In this document: piece by piece, positions 11,505-20,234 of the stretch
How positions within the stretch are numbered: position 1 is the first letter of the stretch
Layout of the letters: each line of letters begins with the position of its first letter
Assembly (NCBI GenBank): GCA_021781425.1
Contig: JAJXWU010000206.1
Coordinates: forward strand, 1 to 41,639
Length of the DNA: 41,639 nucleotides
Reading direction: 5' to 3'
Origin: Pseudomonadota bacterium
GTDB taxonomy: Bacteria > Pseudomonadota > Gammaproteobacteria > Xanthomonadales > Rhodanobacteraceae
Position numbers and translations under genes: made by a program
Notes under the pieces: generated by a model
Database searches by the model: none
Told to the model about the DNA's origin: nothing
Seen by the model: only the letters and a program-made list of their open reading frames with translations

Positions 11505-12134
11505 ATGAGAGTTCAACCGGCACGGGTAGTCGGCGCGGCCTTGCTGCTGGGTGCGTGCATGCAGGCAAATGCCTTTACCGTAGGCAACTCCACGCCCACC
11601 TCGGTGTATTTCGTACAAGGGCAAAGTTTCACACCAGCGGTCAGCGGTAATGCCGGCAGCGGCACGCCCAAACCCGACAGCTCGGGAAACGCCCAGTTGT
11701 CGTCGGTTCATATCGCGTTCGCGACGGGTCAAACGCCGTCATCGACGCTCTACATTTATTCGACTTTGCCGACGAACGGCGACGCGGCTACCGGCATCGG
11801 CAGCATCGCTTCCGCACCCGACAGTGGCGGCGGCAACTATGTTTTCAATCCGCCCGTTCCCGTGCCCTATTCGACGCAGACCTACGCAGTCCTGCCAGGT
11901 TGTGCCAGCATTTACGATGCGCCCGACAGCTATGCAGGTGGCACGGATCTTTATCCCGTAGGCTGCCCGGCGCCGGGAGCAAACCCGATCATCCAGGGCA
12001 CATACGACATCGGCTTCACCGCCACCTTTGTCGACCCGCCGCAGCCGGCTCCTATGATGAATTGGACTGGCGTCGGATTGCTCGTTTTTCTGCTTGCCGG
12101 CCTGGCGCTGGTTACGCGCAGGCGAGCAGCATAG
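11505..12134 (+). CDS. Exported protein with C-terminal sorting-like anchor
   Basis: 209 aa; AGGGGAG sits 4-10 bases before the ATG. The N-terminus is a signal peptide ending QANA at residues 20-23; it also contains LGAC at 15-18, which could act as a lipobox. The middle (about 24-175) is rich in Gly, Ser, Thr, Pro and Tyr and predicted all-beta, without a family I recognise. The C-terminal 31 residues have the three-part layout of exosortase/rhombosortase substrates: a short PAPMMNW motif, a hydrophobic span (VGLLVFLLAGLALV) and a basic end (RRRAA). It resembles IPTL-CTERM-like tails in layout but not in the key letters. Probably anchored at or released from the cell surface; function unknown. 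Confidence 0.78.
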   Translation: MRVQPARVVGAALLLGACMQANAFTVGNSTPTSVYFVQGQSFTPAVSGNAGSGTPKPDSSGNAQLSSVHIAFATGQTPSSTLYIYSTLPTNGDAATGIGSIASAPDSGGGNYVFNPPVPVPYSTQTYAVLPGCASIYDAPDSYAGGTDLYPVGCPAPGANPIIQGTYDIGFTATFVDPPQPAPMMNWTGVGLLVFLLAGLALVTRRRAA

Positions 12135-14200: not shown

Positions 14201-15106
14201 TCAGGCGACGCGGACGATATCGCCGTCGCAGGAACCATCGTCGCGGATGGTCAGATGCGGCAAACCCAGCCCGCGCAGATAGGCGCCTCCACCCTCGACA
14301 CCCATCAGCATCGCCAGCGTCGCCGCCGCGCCGGCGATGAGGCAGCTTTCGGCCACGACGCTGACGCTGGCGAAACCCTGCGCCGGTTCGCCGCGGCGCG
14401 GGTCGACGATATGCGAATAGCGGCGCCCATCGACGATCAGCGCGCGTTCGTAGTCGCCGCTCGTCGCCAGTCCGCCGCGCGGCAATTCGATGCGCGCCGC
14501 CGCGCGTCCGGACGCTCGCGGCGCCTTGATGCCGACGATCCAGGGCGAGCCGTCGCGATGCGGGCCGATCAGAGCCAGATCGCCGCCGAGATCGATGACG
14601 CCCGAAACCGCGCCGACATCGCGACACGCCTGCGCGCAGCGGTCGGCGGCGTATTCCTTGACGATTCCGCCCAGATCCAGATGCATGCCGGACACCGCCA
14701 AGCGCAAAAACGGGCGCCGCCACTGCACCCGATGCCAGCCGGTGAGCGTGAGCGCCGCAGCGATTTCGGTCTTGTGCGGCAAACGCGTGCCCTGTGCATC
14801 CCACAACCGCGTCAGCGCTCCGGCGGTGATGTCAAACAGGCCGCCGCTTTGGGCGTGCAGCGCGGCGGCGAAGTCGATCAGGTTGGCCGTCTCCGCATCG
14901 ACTTCGATGCCCGCGATAGCGCTCGCCGCGATGCGCGCAACGAGGCTGTCGTCGCGGTAATGCGAATATTTGCGGTCCAGCCGCGTACATTCGGCAACGA
15001 CCGCCGCCCGCGCGGCCTGCGCGATGGGTTCGGCGTCCGTCTCCAGATGCAGAGTGCACGGGCAACCCATGCTGGAGAAGTCGAATTTGTATACTTCGCC
15101 ACTCAA
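14201..15106 (-). CDS. apbE: ApbE-family FAD:protein FMN transferase
   Basis: 301 aa from a TTG at 15106 whose last two bases overlap the TGA of the upstream DUF3570 gene; the next in-frame ATG is at 15070, but it would remove the conserved KFDFSSMGCPCTL start. ApbE enzymes link FMN to Thr/Ser of exported proteins. Seen: SMGCPCTLHL near 12-21, a KYSHYRDDS stretch, HLDLGGIVKEYAADR, VIDLGGDLALIG and YSHIVDPRRGEP. The usual metal-binding ADALxT block is replaced by IAGAAATLAML, with Gly where Asp normally sits. No signal peptide is seen from this start. Last gene of the five-gene redox operon; its likely partners are encoded just upstream. Confidence 0.88.
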   Translation of the reverse strand: MSGEVYKFDFSSMGCPCTLHLETDAEPIAQAARAAVVAECTRLDRKYSHYRDDSLVARIAASAIAGIEVDAETANLIDFAAALHAQSGGLFDITAGALTRLWDAQGTRLPHKTEIAAALTLTGWHRVQWRRPFLRLAVSGMHLDLGGIVKEYAADRCAQACRDVGAVSGVIDLGGDLALIGPHRDGSPWIVGIKAPRASGRAAARIELPRGGLATSGDYERALIVDGRRYSHIVDPRRGEPAQGFASVSVVAESCLIAGAAATLAMLMGVEGGGAYLRGLGLPHLTIRDDGSCDGDIVRVA

Positions 15107-16278
15107 TCGAAATGGTAGTCCAGACCGGCAAACACGCGGGTGTAACTGACCACCGCCGGATCGGCCGAATCCGCACCGCCGATCGCGTAGCCCGTGCTGG
15201 CATGATAGCGCTCGGCGCCGGCGGACAATTCCCAATGCCCGATGCGCTTGCGCAGGTTCAGGTTTGCCGCGGCCGCGCCGAACGCACCGAGGCGGTAGTC
15301 GCTGGAAAAATCCGGTCCGCTGCCGGCGGCGAAGAACGGTGCGTAGAAGCGCGCGCGGCTCTGGCTGTAATAGCGCACGCCGGGTACCAGTTGCCAGCCA
15401 TCGCGCAGGTTCCGGTACCAGCTCGCTTCCAGGGTCAGTGAATGCTGGCCCCAACTGTTCGCGACCAGGCGCGAGTCCAGATGCAGCGCCGCGTCAGCGC
15501 CGAACGCGCGGCGATAGCGCACCAACCACGCGACTTCGCCGCGCCGATGCGGACGCGTATCGGGGTCCAGCGTGTCGCCCACCAAGACCAGCTTGTACGG
15601 ATCCGACAGATACCCGCTTTGATAATCGATCTGGATGCCGCTCTCGACCACGGATACGCGATCCAGCACCAGGCTCAGGCTGGCGAACGCCGACGTCGTG
15701 TTTTTCTCGGCGCGCTGGATGCGGCCGTAAAGCAAGGCGGCGAAGGGTTCGATGCGATCATGCGAAAAACTGCCGCCGAAACCCAGGGTCAGTGCGCTCG
15801 ACAATGGCAACGTGCGTTCGGCGCCGAGTGCGGTGGAGTGGTAGTCGCGCTCCTGCGAATACGACGCGCTGAACGTGCGCGTGTCGTTGCCGCCCGCATC
15901 GTGGGTCAGCGCCACCGTGGCCGCGCTGCGGTGATCGCGGATGGTCGCACCGCTCAAGACCTGGATCGGCCTGTTGTCCGGTCCGGGAATCACGTACCAC
16001 GGCGACGATCCGCTCATCACTTCGTGGGTCGCGTTCACGCTCAGCGTGTTGCGATCGCCGACCGGCGTGTTCAGCAGGAACTGTTGCGAATACACCTCGT
16101 AGCGGCGCGGATCGCCGAGCGACGGCGCCGACAGCGCATCCTCGCCGTAGATGTTGAAGCGATAACCGGCGTATTGCTCCGAAGCGGTTTCATCGGCCCG
16201 CACGGCGTTGTGCCCGGTCAACGCGGCCGAGGCGGCGAGCAGCAGCGACAGCGAGGGCGAAGGCCGCATCAATTGCAT
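15103..16278 (-). CDS. DUF3570 protein, predicted outer-membrane beta-barrel
   Basis: 391 aa from the ATG at 16278, chosen because GGGAGG lies 9 bases upstream; a second ATG at 16269 forms TGATG with the stop of the previous gene. A signal peptide covers about residues 1-28 (…HNAVRA). The rest is a series of alternating beta strands with aromatic girdles (for example WLVRYRRAFG, HSLTLEASWYRN, WQLVPGVRYYSQSR) ending in GLDYHFD, as in a beta-barrel whose final aromatic is one residue from the end. Residues 109-112 are SGAT. The DUF3570 family usually occurs with DUF4266, thioredoxin and ApbE genes, as far as I recall. Role unknown; perhaps an outer-membrane redox or transport partner of the flavinylation system. 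Confidence 0.85.
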   Translation of the reverse strand: MQLMRPSPSLSLLLAASAALTGHNAVRADETASEQYAGYRFNIYGEDALSAPSLGDPRRYEVYSQQFLLNTPVGDRNTLSVNATHEVMSGSSPWYVIPGPDNRPIQVLSGATIRDHRSAATVALTHDAGGNDTRTFSASYSQERDYHSTALGAERTLPLSSALTLGFGGSFSHDRIEPFAALLYGRIQRAEKNTTSAFASLSLVLDRVSVVESGIQIDYQSGYLSDPYKLVLVGDTLDPDTRPHRRGEVAWLVRYRRAFGADAALHLDSRLVANSWGQHSLTLEASWYRNLRDGWQLVPGVRYYSQSRARFYAPFFAAGSGPDFSSDYRLGAFGAAAANLNLRKRIGHWELSAGAERYHASTGYAIGGADSADPAVVSYTRVFAGLDYHFD

Positions 16279-16544
16279 CCGCACCCGCCTCCCGCTGCGC
16301 CGATCTCGCCGGAGGTGCCTTCCTTGCTGAAGTAGGCGTGTTGATTCATCGCCGCCTGCAGCGGGTCCGGATCCCAGCGCATGTCCCAGCGCGCCAGCCG
16401 ACCGCGCTGCCACGGCTGCACCGCTTGCATCGCACAGCCGCCGAGACAGACCAGCGCAATCAGCGCCAGCAGCCAGCGCAGGGCGCGTTCAGTGTGCCGG
16501 CGCTGGCCTGGCGATGAGTTCCGTGATTTCGCGTTTGAGCACAT
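16269..16544 (-). CDS. DUF4266 small lipoprotein with Cys-rich C-terminus
   Basis: 91 aa from the ATG at 16544 (AAGGA 5 bases upstream, inside the tlpA-like gene). The hydrophobic stretch RWLLALIALVCLGGC ends in a lipobox with Cys37. A shorter product from the CTG at 16481 would give a more normal lipoprotein leader; there is no ATG/GTG/TTG there, so the true start is uncertain. The mature part is only about 55 residues, with VQPWQRGRLARWDMRWDPDP, NQHAYFSKEG and the ending GGGCGCN, all DUF4266 traits. The C-terminal CGC could bind metal or form a disulfide acted on by the thioredoxin encoded next door. It overlaps both neighbours. Confidence 0.85.
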   Translation of the reverse strand: MCSNAKSRNSSPGQRRHTERALRWLLALIALVCLGGCAMQAVQPWQRGRLARWDMRWDPDPLQAAMNQHAYFSKEGTSGEIGAAGGGCGCN

Positions 16545-16995
16545 CGATGTCCTTCGGCTCGAAGCCGACATGGCGGTCGCGCACGATCCCCGAGCGGTCG
16601 ATCAGGTAGGACGAAGGCATGCCCTTCAATCCGAACGCCTGCGCAACGTCGCCGCGTGGATCTTGCAAAGCAGTGTACTTGACCGGGTGTTCGCGCAGAA
16701 ATGCCCTGGCGTCGTCGCTGTTCTCATCGAGGCCGACCGCGAGTATGGCGAATTCGGATACGGGAAAATCTGCCTGCAGGCCGTTGTACAGCGGCAACGA
16801 TTGCCGGCATGGACTGCACCAGGACGCCCAGAAATCCACCAGCACAACCTTGCCGCGGTAATCGGTCAAGGACACGGTATGCGTACCAGCGAACGGCGTC
16901 AGGGAAAAATCCGGCGCCGTGGCGCCGGGTTCCACTGCGCTCGCCGCACCGGCCGCGGCGAGCAACGCAGCGGCCAGTGCGATGCGCAGGCTCAT
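16489..16995 (-). CDS. TlpA/ResA-like periplasmic thioredoxin
   Basis: 168 aa. A signal peptide of about 20 residues (LLAAAGAASA) is followed by a thioredoxin fold of the AhpC/TSA-Redoxin type: VLVDFWASWCSPCRQS with the redox pair Cys60-Ser-Pro-Cys63, and the cis-Pro loop GMPSSYLIDRSG near residue 133. Such proteins reduce or oxidise cysteine pairs in the periplasm, for instance in cytochrome c or copper-site maturation. The ATG at 16995 overlaps the stop of the cupredoxin gene (ATGA). The 3' end overlaps the DUF4266 frame. In this operon the Cys-containing DUF4266 protein and the cupredoxin are the obvious candidate substrates, which is inference. Confidence 0.9.
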   Translation of the reverse strand: MSLRIALAAALLAAAGAASAVEPGATAPDFSLTPFAGTHTVSLTDYRGKVVLVDFWASWCSPCRQSLPLYNGLQADFPVSEFAILAVGLDENSDDARAFLREHPVKYTALQDPRGDVAQAFGLKGMPSSYLIDRSGIVRDRHVGFEPKDIDVLKREITELIARPAPAH

Positions 16996-17873
16996 TGCGC
17001 GGGGCACGTCGTGCCCGCAATTTGAGTCAGGCGCTGGATCGGCAGCGGCGTGTCGTTGGCATTGTTGTAACCGGGCACGTCCGAATGCCAGCTCACCGTG
17101 CCGTTGTTGCAGTCGGTGAAGGTGAAGGTGAGCGTGCCCCACAGGTCCGGCGGATTCGGTCCGGTTCCGACGCGGCGCACATCGCTCGGAGTGAAGTTCG
17201 GCGGGAAGCGCGCGCCGGTTTGCAGGATCGCGGGCAGGGTGACGGTATTGGTGGTGGTGTCGTAGCTGCCTTGTGCATAGATCCAGTTCTGGCCGCTGCC
17301 GTCGTTGGCGGTGCTGGCGACGGGTGTGTAGACGAACCAGATGGCGAGCATGTTGAAAGTGGTGCCGCCGGTGGCGAAGTTGGTGAATTCGAGCTGGAAG
17401 CCGTGGCCACCCTGGCTTGGGTTGTACCAGTTGCCGCTCAGATAGCCGCCCAGCGTGATCGGCGGCGGCGCTGCCGCGTTGACGACGATGCTGCCGACCA
17501 TGCCCATGCTGGCGTGCTGGTCGCAATGATAATTGATCGTGCCGGGCGTAGTGAAAGTGAGGGTGAACGACCAGTTGGCTGCCGACGGATTGCCGTCGCC
17601 GCCTTGACCGTCGCAACCGTTTGCGCAACGGAACGAGTTATCGTCGGCATGTACGTTGTGCGCCGCGCCGCCCAGATTCTGGAACGTGACACTGTCGCCA
17701 GCCGTTATCGTCAGCGGCGTCGGCGAGAAGGCGAGGACCGGGCTATTGCCATATCCGCCATAACCGCCGCCGGAGGATGTGCCGCCGACCTGCACGACCC
17801 AGGTATTGGCGTTAGCGCCGAGAGACAGGAAAAGCAGACACATTGCCAGCAAGCCGATGTGGAACGCACGCAT
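16992..17873 (-). CDS. Secreted cupredoxin fused to a GNWYxPxQxGHGF domain
   Basis: 293 aa, with AAGGAGG 7 bases before the ATG. Signal peptide to about residue 22 (GANA). Residues 24-132 form a plastocyanin-like domain: His72 (AAHNVH) and the loop Cys117-x2-His120-x4-Met125 are the four type-1 copper ligands. A pair of extra cysteines, C83 and C87, may make a disulfide. Residues 142-293 form a second domain with LSGNWYNPSQGGHGFQLEF, an IWFVYTP strand, WGTLTFTFTDCNNGTVSW and a final Cys290. I recall this domain in many secreted proteins of Xanthomonadales, without a known role. First gene of the redox operon; likely a periplasmic or extracellular electron carrier or copper store. Confidence 0.87.
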   Translation of the reverse strand: MRAFHIGLLAMCLLFLSLGANANTWVVQVGGTSSGGGYGGYGNSPVLAFSPTPLTITAGDSVTFQNLGGAAHNVHADDNSFRCANGCDGQGGDGNPSAANWSFTLTFTTPGTINYHCDQHASMGMVGSIVVNAAAPPPITLGGYLSGNWYNPSQGGHGFQLEFTNFATGGTTFNMLAIWFVYTPVASTANDGSGQNWIYAQGSYDTTTNTVTLPAILQTGARFPPNFTPSDVRRVGTGPNPPDLWGTLTFTFTDCNNGTVSWHSDVPGYNNANDTPLPIQRLTQIAGTTCPAQ

Positions 17874-17922
17874 GGGCAACCTCCTTATCCACGCAATAGC
17901 GGGTCGCGAGAAAACTAGCACC

Positions 17923-18806: not shown

Positions 18807-20234
18807 ATGAACGCCAGAATCGCCGCTCCGGCATTGCCGCCTTCGCTGGATTGGGTGAATACCGACATTGCGCCCAATCTCGCCGCCCTGCACGGGCGCG
18901 TGACGCTGATTCATTTCTGGACGTTCGACTGCGTCAATTGCCGCAACGTGCTGCCGGATCTGCGCTACCTGGAAAACAAGTACCACGATGGACTGAGCGT
19001 GATCGGCGTGCACACGCCGAAATTCGAATATCAGCGGCATACCGAGCCGGTGCTCAAGGCCGTCAACCGCAACCATATCCGCCATCCGGTCGCGAACGAC
19101 CCGGAATACCTATTGTGGCAGGCTTACGGCGTCGAATCGTGGCCGACACTGGCGGTGATCGACGCCCAGGGCCAGCTCGCCGCGCTGCTGCCCGGCGAAG
19201 GCCGCCGCCAGGAAGCCGACACGCTGATCGCGCATCTGCTCGATGAAGCTGCAGTGCAGGATCTGCGCGTGTACGAATCCGACGTCGCGACCGTACGTCC
19301 GGAAGCGCGCGCGCCATTGCGCTTCCCGTCGCGCCTGGCGGTGGGGGAATCCAGCCTGTGGATTTCCGACAGCGGCCACAACCGCATCCTGGAATGCACT
19401 CACGACGGCCGCATCCTGCGCCAATACGGCTCGGGCAATCCGGGCTACTGGGATGGCCGTGGCCGCGACGCCGGTTTCACCGATCCGCAGGGTCTGGCCC
19501 TGGGCAAGGATGTGTTGTTCGTCGCGGACGTCGGCAACCATGCGCTACGCCGCGTGCGTCTGCTCAGCGGCGACGTGGACACGCTCGCCGGTACCGGTAC
19601 GCCGGGCCACGATCTGCCGAACGAAAATCTGGAGCCGGCCAAAGTGGCGATGTCCGCACCATCCGATGTCGCCGTGCTCGGCGACAACGTCTACATCGCC
19701 GTGTCCGGCCAGAACCAGATCTGGCAGCTCGACATGGTGCGCAACAAACTCGTGGTCCTGGCCGGCAGCGGACAACTGGGTCTGACCGACGGTGTCGGCG
19801 TGACCGCAAGCTTCGCCCAGCCATCCAGCCTGAGCCTGATCGGCCAGCAGCTCGTGATCGCCGATGCGGGCGCTTCGGCGATACGCCTGCTGCGTCTGCT
19901 CGACAATCGTGTCAGCACGCTGGTCGGTACGGGCCTGTACGATTTCGGCGACGCTGCCGGCAAGCGTGAGGACGCGCGTCTGCAGCATCCGCTCGCCGTG
20001 TGCGCGGATGCGCGTGGCCTGATTTTCGTCGCCGACAGCTACAACGGCAAGATCAAGGCGATCAACATGCGCAGCGGGGACGTGCGCACGTTGAATCTGC
20101 CGCATCGGCTGCAGGAGCCGGCAGGACTTGCGCTCGGCGCCGGGGCGCTGTGGGTCGCCAACACCAATGCGCACGAGATCCTGCGCGTGGATCTTGGCAG
20201 TGGACAGATCCGGCGCCTGACGATTTCCGAGTGA
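18807..20234 (+). CDS. Thioredoxin-like and NHL-repeat protein (NHLRC2-like)
   Basis: 475 aa. Residues about 10-150 form a thioredoxin-like domain with HFWTFDCVNCRNVLPDL, the pair Cys42-Val-Asn-Cys45, and ESWPTLAVID as the cis-Pro loop. Residues about 170-475 hold NHL repeats forming a beta-propeller, for example LWISDSGHNRILE, LFVADVGNHALRRV, LVIADAGASAIRLL and IFVADSYNGKIKAI. The same two-part layout occurs in animal NHLRC2 and in bacterial homologues. No signal peptide is seen, so it is probably cytosolic. It lies between kdsB and uvrC with gaps of 21 and 3 bases, so the three form an operon. Substrate unknown. Confidence 0.9.
   Translation: MNARIAAPALPPSLDWVNTDIAPNLAALHGRVTLIHFWTFDCVNCRNVLPDLRYLENKYHDGLSVIGVHTPKFEYQRHTEPVLKAVNRNHIRHPVANDPEYLLWQAYGVESWPTLAVIDAQGQLAALLPGEGRRQEADTLIAHLLDEAAVQDLRVYESDVATVRPEARAPLRFPSRLAVGESSLWISDSGHNRILECTHDGRILRQYGSGNPGYWDGRGRDAGFTDPQGLALGKDVLFVADVGNHALRRVRLLSGDVDTLAGTGTPGHDLPNENLEPAKVAMSAPSDVAVLGDNVYIAVSGQNQIWQLDMVRNKLVVLAGSGQLGLTDGVGVTASFAQPSSLSLIGQQLVIADAGASAIRLLRLLDNRVSTLVGTGLYDFGDAAGKREDARLQHPLAVCADARGLIFVADSYNGKIKAINMRSGDVRTLNLPHRLQEPAGLALGAGALWVANTNAHEILRVDLGSGQIRRLTISE

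Follow-up and report, generated by a model that had tools for sequence, protein, structure and literature searches.

A cupredoxin added to a conserved TlpA-DUF4266-DUF3570-ApbE gene set in Lysobacterales, and a tentative model of haem-free electron transfer at the outer membrane

Contig JAJXWU010000206.1 of assembly GCA_021781425.1 is one of 265 contigs of a Rhodanobacteraceae metagenome-assembled genome (MAG) whose closest named relatives are Rudaea; its 41,639 nucleotides (nt) were analysed as a whole and are called the window here. On its minus strand are five overlapping genes that encode a cupredoxin fusion, a TlpA-like thiol-disulfide protein, a DUF4266 lipoprotein, a DUF3570 protein and the flavin transferase ApbE. 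The last four families form a core whose grouping is beyond chance: all four lie within the fetched DNA in 61 of 79 named loci from other genomes, several of which sit on cut contigs, and the ratios of nonsynonymous to synonymous substitution rates (dN/dS) against the sister MAG locus L163 are 0.32, 0.29, 0.16, 0.22, and 0.31 in gene order, from alignments that cover residues 49-293 of the cupredoxin protein and 1-81 of DUF4266. The leading cupredoxin, on the other hand, is a lineage-specific addition of the Lysobacterales. Our reading, which we hold tentatively and as possible rather than probable, is that the products form a haem-free thiol-flavin relay, in which an outer-membrane flavoprotein is fed by periplasmic thiols, and to which an exported blue-copper partner has been added in the Lysobacterales. 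While the core set was already known, the copper addition with its coincidence with an SGSS flavin site, the predicted barrel topology, and the signal-less transferase are new here. The features are as follows.

16992..17873, minus strand: cupredoxin fusion gene (P0001, 293 amino acids); Copper-bind PF00127, 49.7 bits
17469..17810, minus strand: cupredoxin domain, residues 22-135, with predicted ligands H72, C117, H120, and M125, from homologue and plastocyanin alignments
16995..17465, minus strand: C-terminal module of P0001, residues 137-293, common to the C-termini of many exported proteins of the genus
17880..17886, minus strand: Shine-Dalgarno-like AAGGAGG ahead of the cupredoxin gene, from the sequence
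16489..16995, minus strand: TlpA-like exported thiol-disulfide protein (P0002); AhpC-TSA, 84.7 bits
16807..16818, minus strand: CSPC redox motif of the TlpA-like protein, Cys60 and Cys63 (WCSPC); CxxC present in homologues
16269..16544, minus strand: DUF4266 lipoprotein (P0003) with lipobox LGGC; PF14086, 76.2 bits
16275..16283, minus strand: C-terminal CGC of DUF4266 (Cys88, Cys90), one residue short of the end
15103..16278, minus strand: DUF3570 (P0004), predicted 16-strand outer-membrane barrel and probable ApbE substrate; PF12094, 173.9 bits, and AlphaFold2 (AF2) model
16003..16014, minus strand: predicted flavinylation site 1, S89-G-S-S92, a variant of [S/T]GA[S/T]
15943..15954, minus strand: predicted flavinylation site 2, S109-G-A-T112, canonical motif
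14201..15106, minus strand: ApbE FAD:protein FMN transferase (P0005; FAD, flavin adenine dinucleotide; FMN, flavin mononucleotide), TTG start at 15106; PF02424, 245.2 bits

Each gene overlaps the next, by 4, 56, 10, and 4 nt in gene order, and the coordinates, gene order, strand, and overlaps given by an earlier note on this DNA (the original prediction) were all correct on recount. The start codons of DUF4266, DUF3570, and ApbE are predicted, and an alternative ATG at 16269 would reduce the 10-nt overlap between DUF4266 and DUF3570 to a single base. Export leaders were scored with an in-house measure, the best 12-residue mean hydropathy within the first 45 residues (threshold 2.0), which gave 2.61, 2.34, 2.75, 1.99, and 1.18 in gene order. 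Four of the five products thus have leaders, as had been claimed, with DUF3570 at the borderline, and ApbE has none. The DUF4266 protein ends in GGGCGCN.

The core set is distributed well beyond the genus. In evenly drawn subsets, DUF4266 (PF14086) was found in 17 of 299 order genomes, 90 of 369 class genomes, and 21 of 299 phylum genomes (20 above the Pfam cut-off); in the genus, it was found in 11 of 16. The core was visible in 21 of the 22 phylum loci besides the window, and for the class we compared regions from 53 (55 loci) of the 89 other DUF4266 genomes. Named loci are the best 79 of 461 relatives in a scan seeded with an alignment of DUF3570, where the first flavin motif entered the patterns as SG[SA]SP, so that SGSS and SGAS were accepted alike; given this seeding and selection, the share of two-motif loci, or of any other type, is not a frequency. 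Nineteen named loci are counted as Lysobacterales, L173 being placed there only by its module match, and 14 duplicate loci were removed before leaders, CxC, and barrel types were counted. Genus genomes G299-G311 were first found through a match to P0001, a bias removed by the later genus search with DUF4266. Throughout, absence of a gene from a locus means absence from the fetched DNA. The conserved DUF4266/DUF3570 neighbourhood that had been anticipated in other genomes therefore exists. When co-occurrence was counted, as had been suggested, ApbE went with the core in the 61 named loci, but the cupredoxin was seen only within the order (9 of 17 genomes) and in none of the 55 class loci.

The core has been described before. 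Meheust et al. (2021, eLife, PMC8238504) reported clusters in which apbE and DUF3570 occur with a thioredoxin-like gene and DUF4266, some with DsbD and some without it. In the part of that study available to us, their clusters and the window share the four families and the C-terminal CxC of DUF4266, DUF3570 has two flavinylation motifs (predicted in the window, the first of them a variant), and DsbD is missing from the window cluster as it is from 316 of theirs; one DsbD match lies elsewhere in the genome. The window differs from them by the leading cupredoxin-module gene and by SGSS at site 1, and its thioredoxin-like gene, with matches to PF00578, PF08534, and others, does not match the PF13899 that the study names. 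Co-expression in the same study showed that the DUF3570 protein of C. luteolum is flavinylated at two sites by its ApbE; when made in Escherichia coli, it was mostly in the insoluble pellet, was purified denatured, and was still flavinylated. The covalent flavin for which a search had been suggested is thus on record for a homologue. The original prediction had named the four-gene set as one without a proven function: the set is indeed published, together with an experiment, and the available text calls its function uncertain and notes the DUF4266 CxC. The words "cupredoxin", "plastocyanin", and "beta-barrel" are absent from the main text of PMC8238504, where "outer membrane" occurs once, on siderophore transporters, and a signal-less ApbE for DUF3570 is not discussed in the portion available. 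In the accessible parts of two later sources, a 2024 paper on structural contexts of flavinylation mentions outer-membrane flavinylation sites in general and does not name DUF3570, and a 2025 review of ApbE does not name it either. A cupredoxin tied to the core set is unreported in the literature searched (bioRxiv and most subscription journals lay outside the search), and for cupredoxin together with ApbE the search gave a paper on NosX and nitrous oxide reductase. As far as these searches reach, the leading cupredoxin is new, as had been supposed.

The prediction for DUF3570 is an outer-membrane barrel of 16 strands, with the flavin motifs at one loop that we assign to the outer side. The AF2 model, built from a 60-sequence alignment, has a mean predicted local distance difference test (pLDDT) score of 91.4 and a predicted template modelling (pTM) score of 0.86. 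Its top Foldseek matches are outer-membrane barrels (BcsC, FadL, TonB-dependent receptors, OmpG, PelB), and a second structure aligner gave Z 21.9 to a BamA model entry and 20.8 to PelB, with Z from 15.4 to 21.9 among the 50 matches listed. The predicted fold thus matches known barrels and comes with a leader (1.99), and the model and matches support the barrel that had been predicted for this protein. Its C-terminus, AGLDYHF, has an aromatic pattern that we take to resemble the barrel-assembly signal. The 16 strands were counted by hand from the strand list, with two small hairpins (93-108, 230-239) taken as parts of loops. One side of the barrel has seven turns of 2-4 residues, and the other has eight loops, six of 13-26 residues and two of 3-4; in the usual barrel topology, the long-loop side faces outward. 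DUF3570 contains no cysteine and carries both flavin motifs, 20 residues apart, bordering the second long loop. Compared with [S/T]GA[S/T], SGAT at 109-112 fits, and SGSS at 89-92 departs at one position. By an in-house measure of conservation, the outer-side loops average 2.27 bits, the strands 2.18, and the short turns 1.43, strand halves on the loop side reach 2.42 vs. 1.98 on the turn side, and loop 2 with the flavin sites is the most conserved of the six long loops (2.67). Since outer loops are usually variable in ordinary porins and are conserved here, the outer side is likely the active side.

Across 141 deduplicated loci, DUF3570 proteins carry two flavin motifs (type i, 83 loci), one (type ii, 22), SSASIDV without a motif (type iii, 27), SGAS[PI]DV (type iv, 7), or other forms (2). 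An apbE gene lies within the fetched DNA in 70/83, 19/22, 4/27, 4/7, and 1/2 of these, respectively, at a cut-off stricter than that of the leader count (hence 70 vs. 72 for type i), so that loss of the flavin motif goes mostly with loss of a nearby apbE. DUF3570 leaders in type-i loci score at least 2.0 in 23 of 83 and at least 1.7 in 68 of 83. The C-terminal CxC of DUF4266 is present in 140 of 140 proteins compared, while the middle segment of this protein is SKE-like in 71 of 82 type-i and 22 of 22 type-ii loci (93/104 pooled) and RExARG in 27 of 27 type-iii and 7 of 7 type-iv loci (34/34 pooled). As a separate observation, the type-iii loci (27 within L104-L156, for example, L120 and L147) keep tlpA and DUF4266 with no flavin motif and mostly no apbE, and their conserved neighbours include an outer-membrane barrel, an SH3 protein, tetratricopeptide repeat (TPR) proteins, and a 906-amino-acid protein with a hydrazine-synthase alpha middle domain.

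The placing of the whole operon in the periplasm, as first proposed, is not supported for the transferase. The window ApbE scores 1.18, and a hidden export signal upstream is ruled out, as the at most 60 in-frame residues before its domain hold no strongly hydrophobic stretch. Without an export signal, the transferase is probably not in the periplasm. The same holds for the flavin-motif types: a hydrophobic leader at 2.0 is found on none of 91 ApbEs of types i and ii (one reaches 1.7) and on 8 of 8 of types iii and iv, and as a control the same measure finds a leader on 70 of 76 type-i TlpAs. These leaderless ApbEs, together with the C. luteolum substrate that was still flavinylated in an E. 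coli pellet, favour attachment before export, and FMN is probably attached to DUF3570 at that stage. The genome, about 90% complete, contains one ApbE match and no FMN_bind match; NqrB/RnfD and DUF2271 targets were not searched for. The ApbE of the Klebsiella fumarate reductase (PMC12052999, as far as the accessible text goes) is likewise without an export signal, but there a cytoplasmic ApbE modifies a soluble fumarate reductase, whereas the substrate here is an exported barrel.

The leading gene encodes a cupredoxin domain with a plastocyanin fold (Z 14.2 to 1bxu, root-mean-square deviation 1.5, 89 residues). From the alignment with plastocyanin, we take H72, C117, H120, and M125 to be the copper ligands. 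The first three are kept in all 13 aligned homologues and M125 in 12 of them. This His-Cys-His-Met set within a plastocyanin fold is that of type 1 blue-copper proteins, with copper binding predicted, and the cupredoxin that had been proposed stands, its predicted ligands intact. P0001 resembles plastocyanin/pseudoazurin cupredoxins (PF00127) in its fold and four ligands, but differs by a fused C-terminal module found on the lineage's exported proteins.

With in-house profiles, a cupredoxin was found within 6 kb of DUF3570 in the 9 of 17 DUF4266-bearing order genomes and the module near DUF3570 in 12 of 17; both were absent from the 55 loci of other orders of the class. In the phylum sample, none of 22 loci had either within about 1.5 kb. 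Pfam's own cupredoxin model finds fewer than these profiles: at a distance of at most 3 kb from DUF4266, it matched in 5 of the 16 further order genomes and in all 4 genus genomes that were added. Among the 53 class genomes, PF00127 was within 10 kb of DUF4266 in none (positions compared by eye), and in G656 and G390 it shares the DUF4266 contig at a distance of hundreds of kb. A family-wide cupredoxin partner is ruled out by the class loci and by the other named loci, of which 48 have 2.5 kb or more of DNA upstream of DUF4266 and none shows the cupredoxin. Because the cupredoxin is missing from the clusters examined outside the order and from part of the order, the core does not need copper. 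Within the genus, the module stands directly before tlpA in 11 of 11 carriers; a cupredoxin is seen in 8, and contig ends truncate the remaining 3. When the fusion and tlpA adjoin on the same strand, 51-224 nt separate the fusion end from the tlpA domain, little beyond room for the tlpA leader; in L177 (same contig as L102), the module lies farther from the operon.

The presence of the cupredoxin also coincides with the form of flavin site 1. The first motif is SGSS in all 13 cupredoxin-bearing named loci, and no cupredoxin occurs in the 60 named loci with SGAS, TGAS, or SGAT. Six more SGSS named loci have no visible cupredoxin; of these, five carry the module on contigs that are short or cut, and the sixth, L172, has neither, with only about 1.3 kb upstream of DUF4266. 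The 17 order genomes comprise 11 with SGSS, 3 with SGAS, and 3 with TGAS, and the cupredoxin is in 9 of the 11 SGSS genomes and 0 of the 6 others.

The fused module bears on where the cupredoxin resides. P0001 has 109 matches in the 16 genus genomes, many to the module alone, and the module ends exported proteins, often in two copies (14 regions chosen by hand; nine proteins scanned, one without a match). Proteins that bear it include a subtilase, a kumamolisin pro-domain protein, a glucose/sorbosone dehydrogenase, beta-propellers, leucine-rich repeats, a beta-helix, and immunoglobulin (Ig)-like repeats, and some homologues have, between cupredoxin and module, a stretch that was judged by eye to be Ig-, PKD- or CARDB-like. 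Three secretin matches occur in the genome. The module therefore looks like a part of exported, possibly secreted, proteins, and we infer that the cupredoxin leaves the cell. As proteases and many other exported proteins carry this module at their C-termini, the periplasmic placement of the cupredoxin in the original prediction may not hold. The window module is 98% identical to that of the operon copy in a sister genome (G307) and the cupredoxin part only 60%, while a 93% match to the window cupredoxin lies on another contig of that genome, so the fusion copies seem to recombine. Taken by itself, the module (L237-L250 and window 16995-17465) is an unnamed C-terminal domain of about 110-160 amino acids on Rudaea exported proteins, often in tandem. 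The C-terminal part of P0001 had no Pfam match up to E 10, and no NCBIfam entry matched the module in the proteins scanned. A named fold for it was dropped, given the lack of a Pfam match and structure matches that, among those listed, cover the cupredoxin part.

A single electron-transfer chain through the operon products would connect these parts, and we infer every electron step in it, as well as the side on which the flavins lie and the location of the cupredoxin. In the cytosol, DUF3570 would receive FMN at two Ser/Thr sites from the signal-less ApbE, either ahead of export or in its course. It would then be exported and inserted as a 16-strand barrel, with the second long loop flanked by both flavins, either extracellularly or within an outer vestibule. 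The TlpA-like protein, perhaps recharged by the DsbD encoded elsewhere, would exchange electrons with the CxC of the DUF4266 lipoprotein, which could pass them to the flavins of the cysteine-free barrel, and the flavins may in turn pass single electrons to or from a partner outside. In the Lysobacterales, the co-encoded cupredoxin on its exported-protein module would be that partner or a shuttle. Electrons may also run inward, from an external reductant. A more specific version, which we consider unlikely as stated, is a haem-free conduit in which the CxC tail of the lipoprotein reaches into the barrel and reduces two outer-face FMNs that exchange electrons with a secreted cupredoxin, the FMNs having been fixed in the cytosol and exported attached. 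The proposed likeness to porin-cytochrome conduits (PioAB and MtrCAB, which we take to be such a conduit) concerns the working principle alone: an outer-membrane barrel and redox cofactors join periplasm and outside, but the cofactors here would be thiols, covalent FMN, and copper, not haem. None of the five proteins contains a CxxCH haem motif, and the multihaem cytochrome of such conduits is not among them.

Several observations weigh against the thiol-flavin relay with its copper partner. In the structural model, the outer-side placement of the flavins follows convention, and two short outer loops exceed loop 2 in conservation (3.52 and 3.01 bits). Site 1 reads SGSS instead of SGA[S/T], and its acceptance by ApbE is putative, while 4 of 27 motif-less loci retain an apbE, with a leader. 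The cupredoxin and module are missing from the class loci noted above; in the order, 5 of 17 genomes have neither and 3 of 17 the module only, although L101 and L102, among these eight, lie on cut contigs. One cupredoxin copy is on the opposite strand (L168, same contig as L098), and another lies about 3 kb upstream of tlpA and lacks the copper Met (L178, same contig as L096). Two class loci have SGSS or TGSS but no cupredoxin. The association of SGSS with the cupredoxin is expected from a functional link, but shared ancestry alone may account for it, and the same may be true of the association between DUF4266 and DUF3570 types.

It is also conceivable, though in our view rather unlikely, that the cupredoxin is only transcribed along with the core as a passenger: of several exported fusions specific to the lineage, this one would have landed before tlpA and would exchange no electrons with the flavins, with the core working as proposed or otherwise. 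The genus does have comparable fusions of cupredoxin and module with no DUF4266 in the DNA fetched (L082, L084, L085, L087, L088), and both the apparent recombination of fusion copies and the absence of a cupredoxin from the 48 other named loci with sufficient upstream DNA would suit a passenger. A passenger would not, however, be expected to keep its place before tlpA across several families of the order (the module at least in every genus carrier), to overlap tlpA translationally as in the window, or to coincide with the SGSS form of site 1. A further explanation would be an assembly chimera in this contig, the operon having been linked to the wrong cupredoxin through the repeated module. 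Sister MAG contigs end within the module (L158, L159, L162, L034), the cupredoxin is far less identical to its G307 counterpart than the module is, and an assembly error at the fusion junction is possible in either MAG. Yet the same architecture is present in two cultured strains, uninterrupted in Rudaea sp. 3F27F6 (L167) and with a run of N in R. cellulosilytica DSM 22992 (L166), and some cupredoxin stands at this position in all genus carriers whose contigs extend that far, which makes a chimera very improbable.

Flavin reductases are linked to iron uptake, and surface flavins could instead reduce Fe(III) or Cu(II) outside the cell for metal assimilation or detoxification, with the cupredoxin handling copper and no electron relay. 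Iron uptake is also a theme of the available part of PMC8238504, in which 25 gene clusters carry the VIT1 iron transporter. The neighbours tested here, however, are kdsB, a gene for a TlpA-NHL protein, a UvrD/Rep-type helicase, and cydAB, with no metal transporter among them, and we regard a metal device as quite unlikely.

Upstream and divergent from the operon are kdsB and the TlpA-NHL gene (window 18807-20234, plus strand), which lies beyond kdsB and fuses a thioredoxin-like domain to NHL repeats; downstream on the same strand is the helicase gene, with cydAB farther on. A 209-amino-acid exported protein at window 11505-12134 (plus strand) ends in a hydrophobic stretch and RRRAA, resembling a sorting signal, and has no Pfam or NCBIfam matches. 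A promoter for the operon was dropped as a candidate: the scan gave one weak sigma-70-like site vs. 0.7 expected, located within the cupredoxin gene. Terminator-like sites numbered 9 vs. 2.9 expected. Elsewhere, an exported protein is conserved near tlpA in 14 loci of other lineages (L174, L182, L183, L185, L190, and others), on the same strand in 12, and the single member scanned (L174) had no Pfam match. Locus L185 (CAMDML010000008.1) is titled a Klebsiella pneumoniae MAG, but its DUF3570 set is like that of uncultured Gammaproteobacteria, and the title looks doubtful.

A signal-less ApbE beside DUF3570 raises a question of general interest, since a flavin transferase that stays in the cytosol would have to modify a barrel that is exported. 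Placed on the outer face of a barrel, next to a lipoprotein with a CxC, the flavins provide a concrete and testable idea of haem-free electron transfer through the outer membrane. In the Lysobacterales, the cupredoxin would offer a soluble partner for assays, and the cultured Rudaea cellulosilytica DSM 22992 carries the operon.

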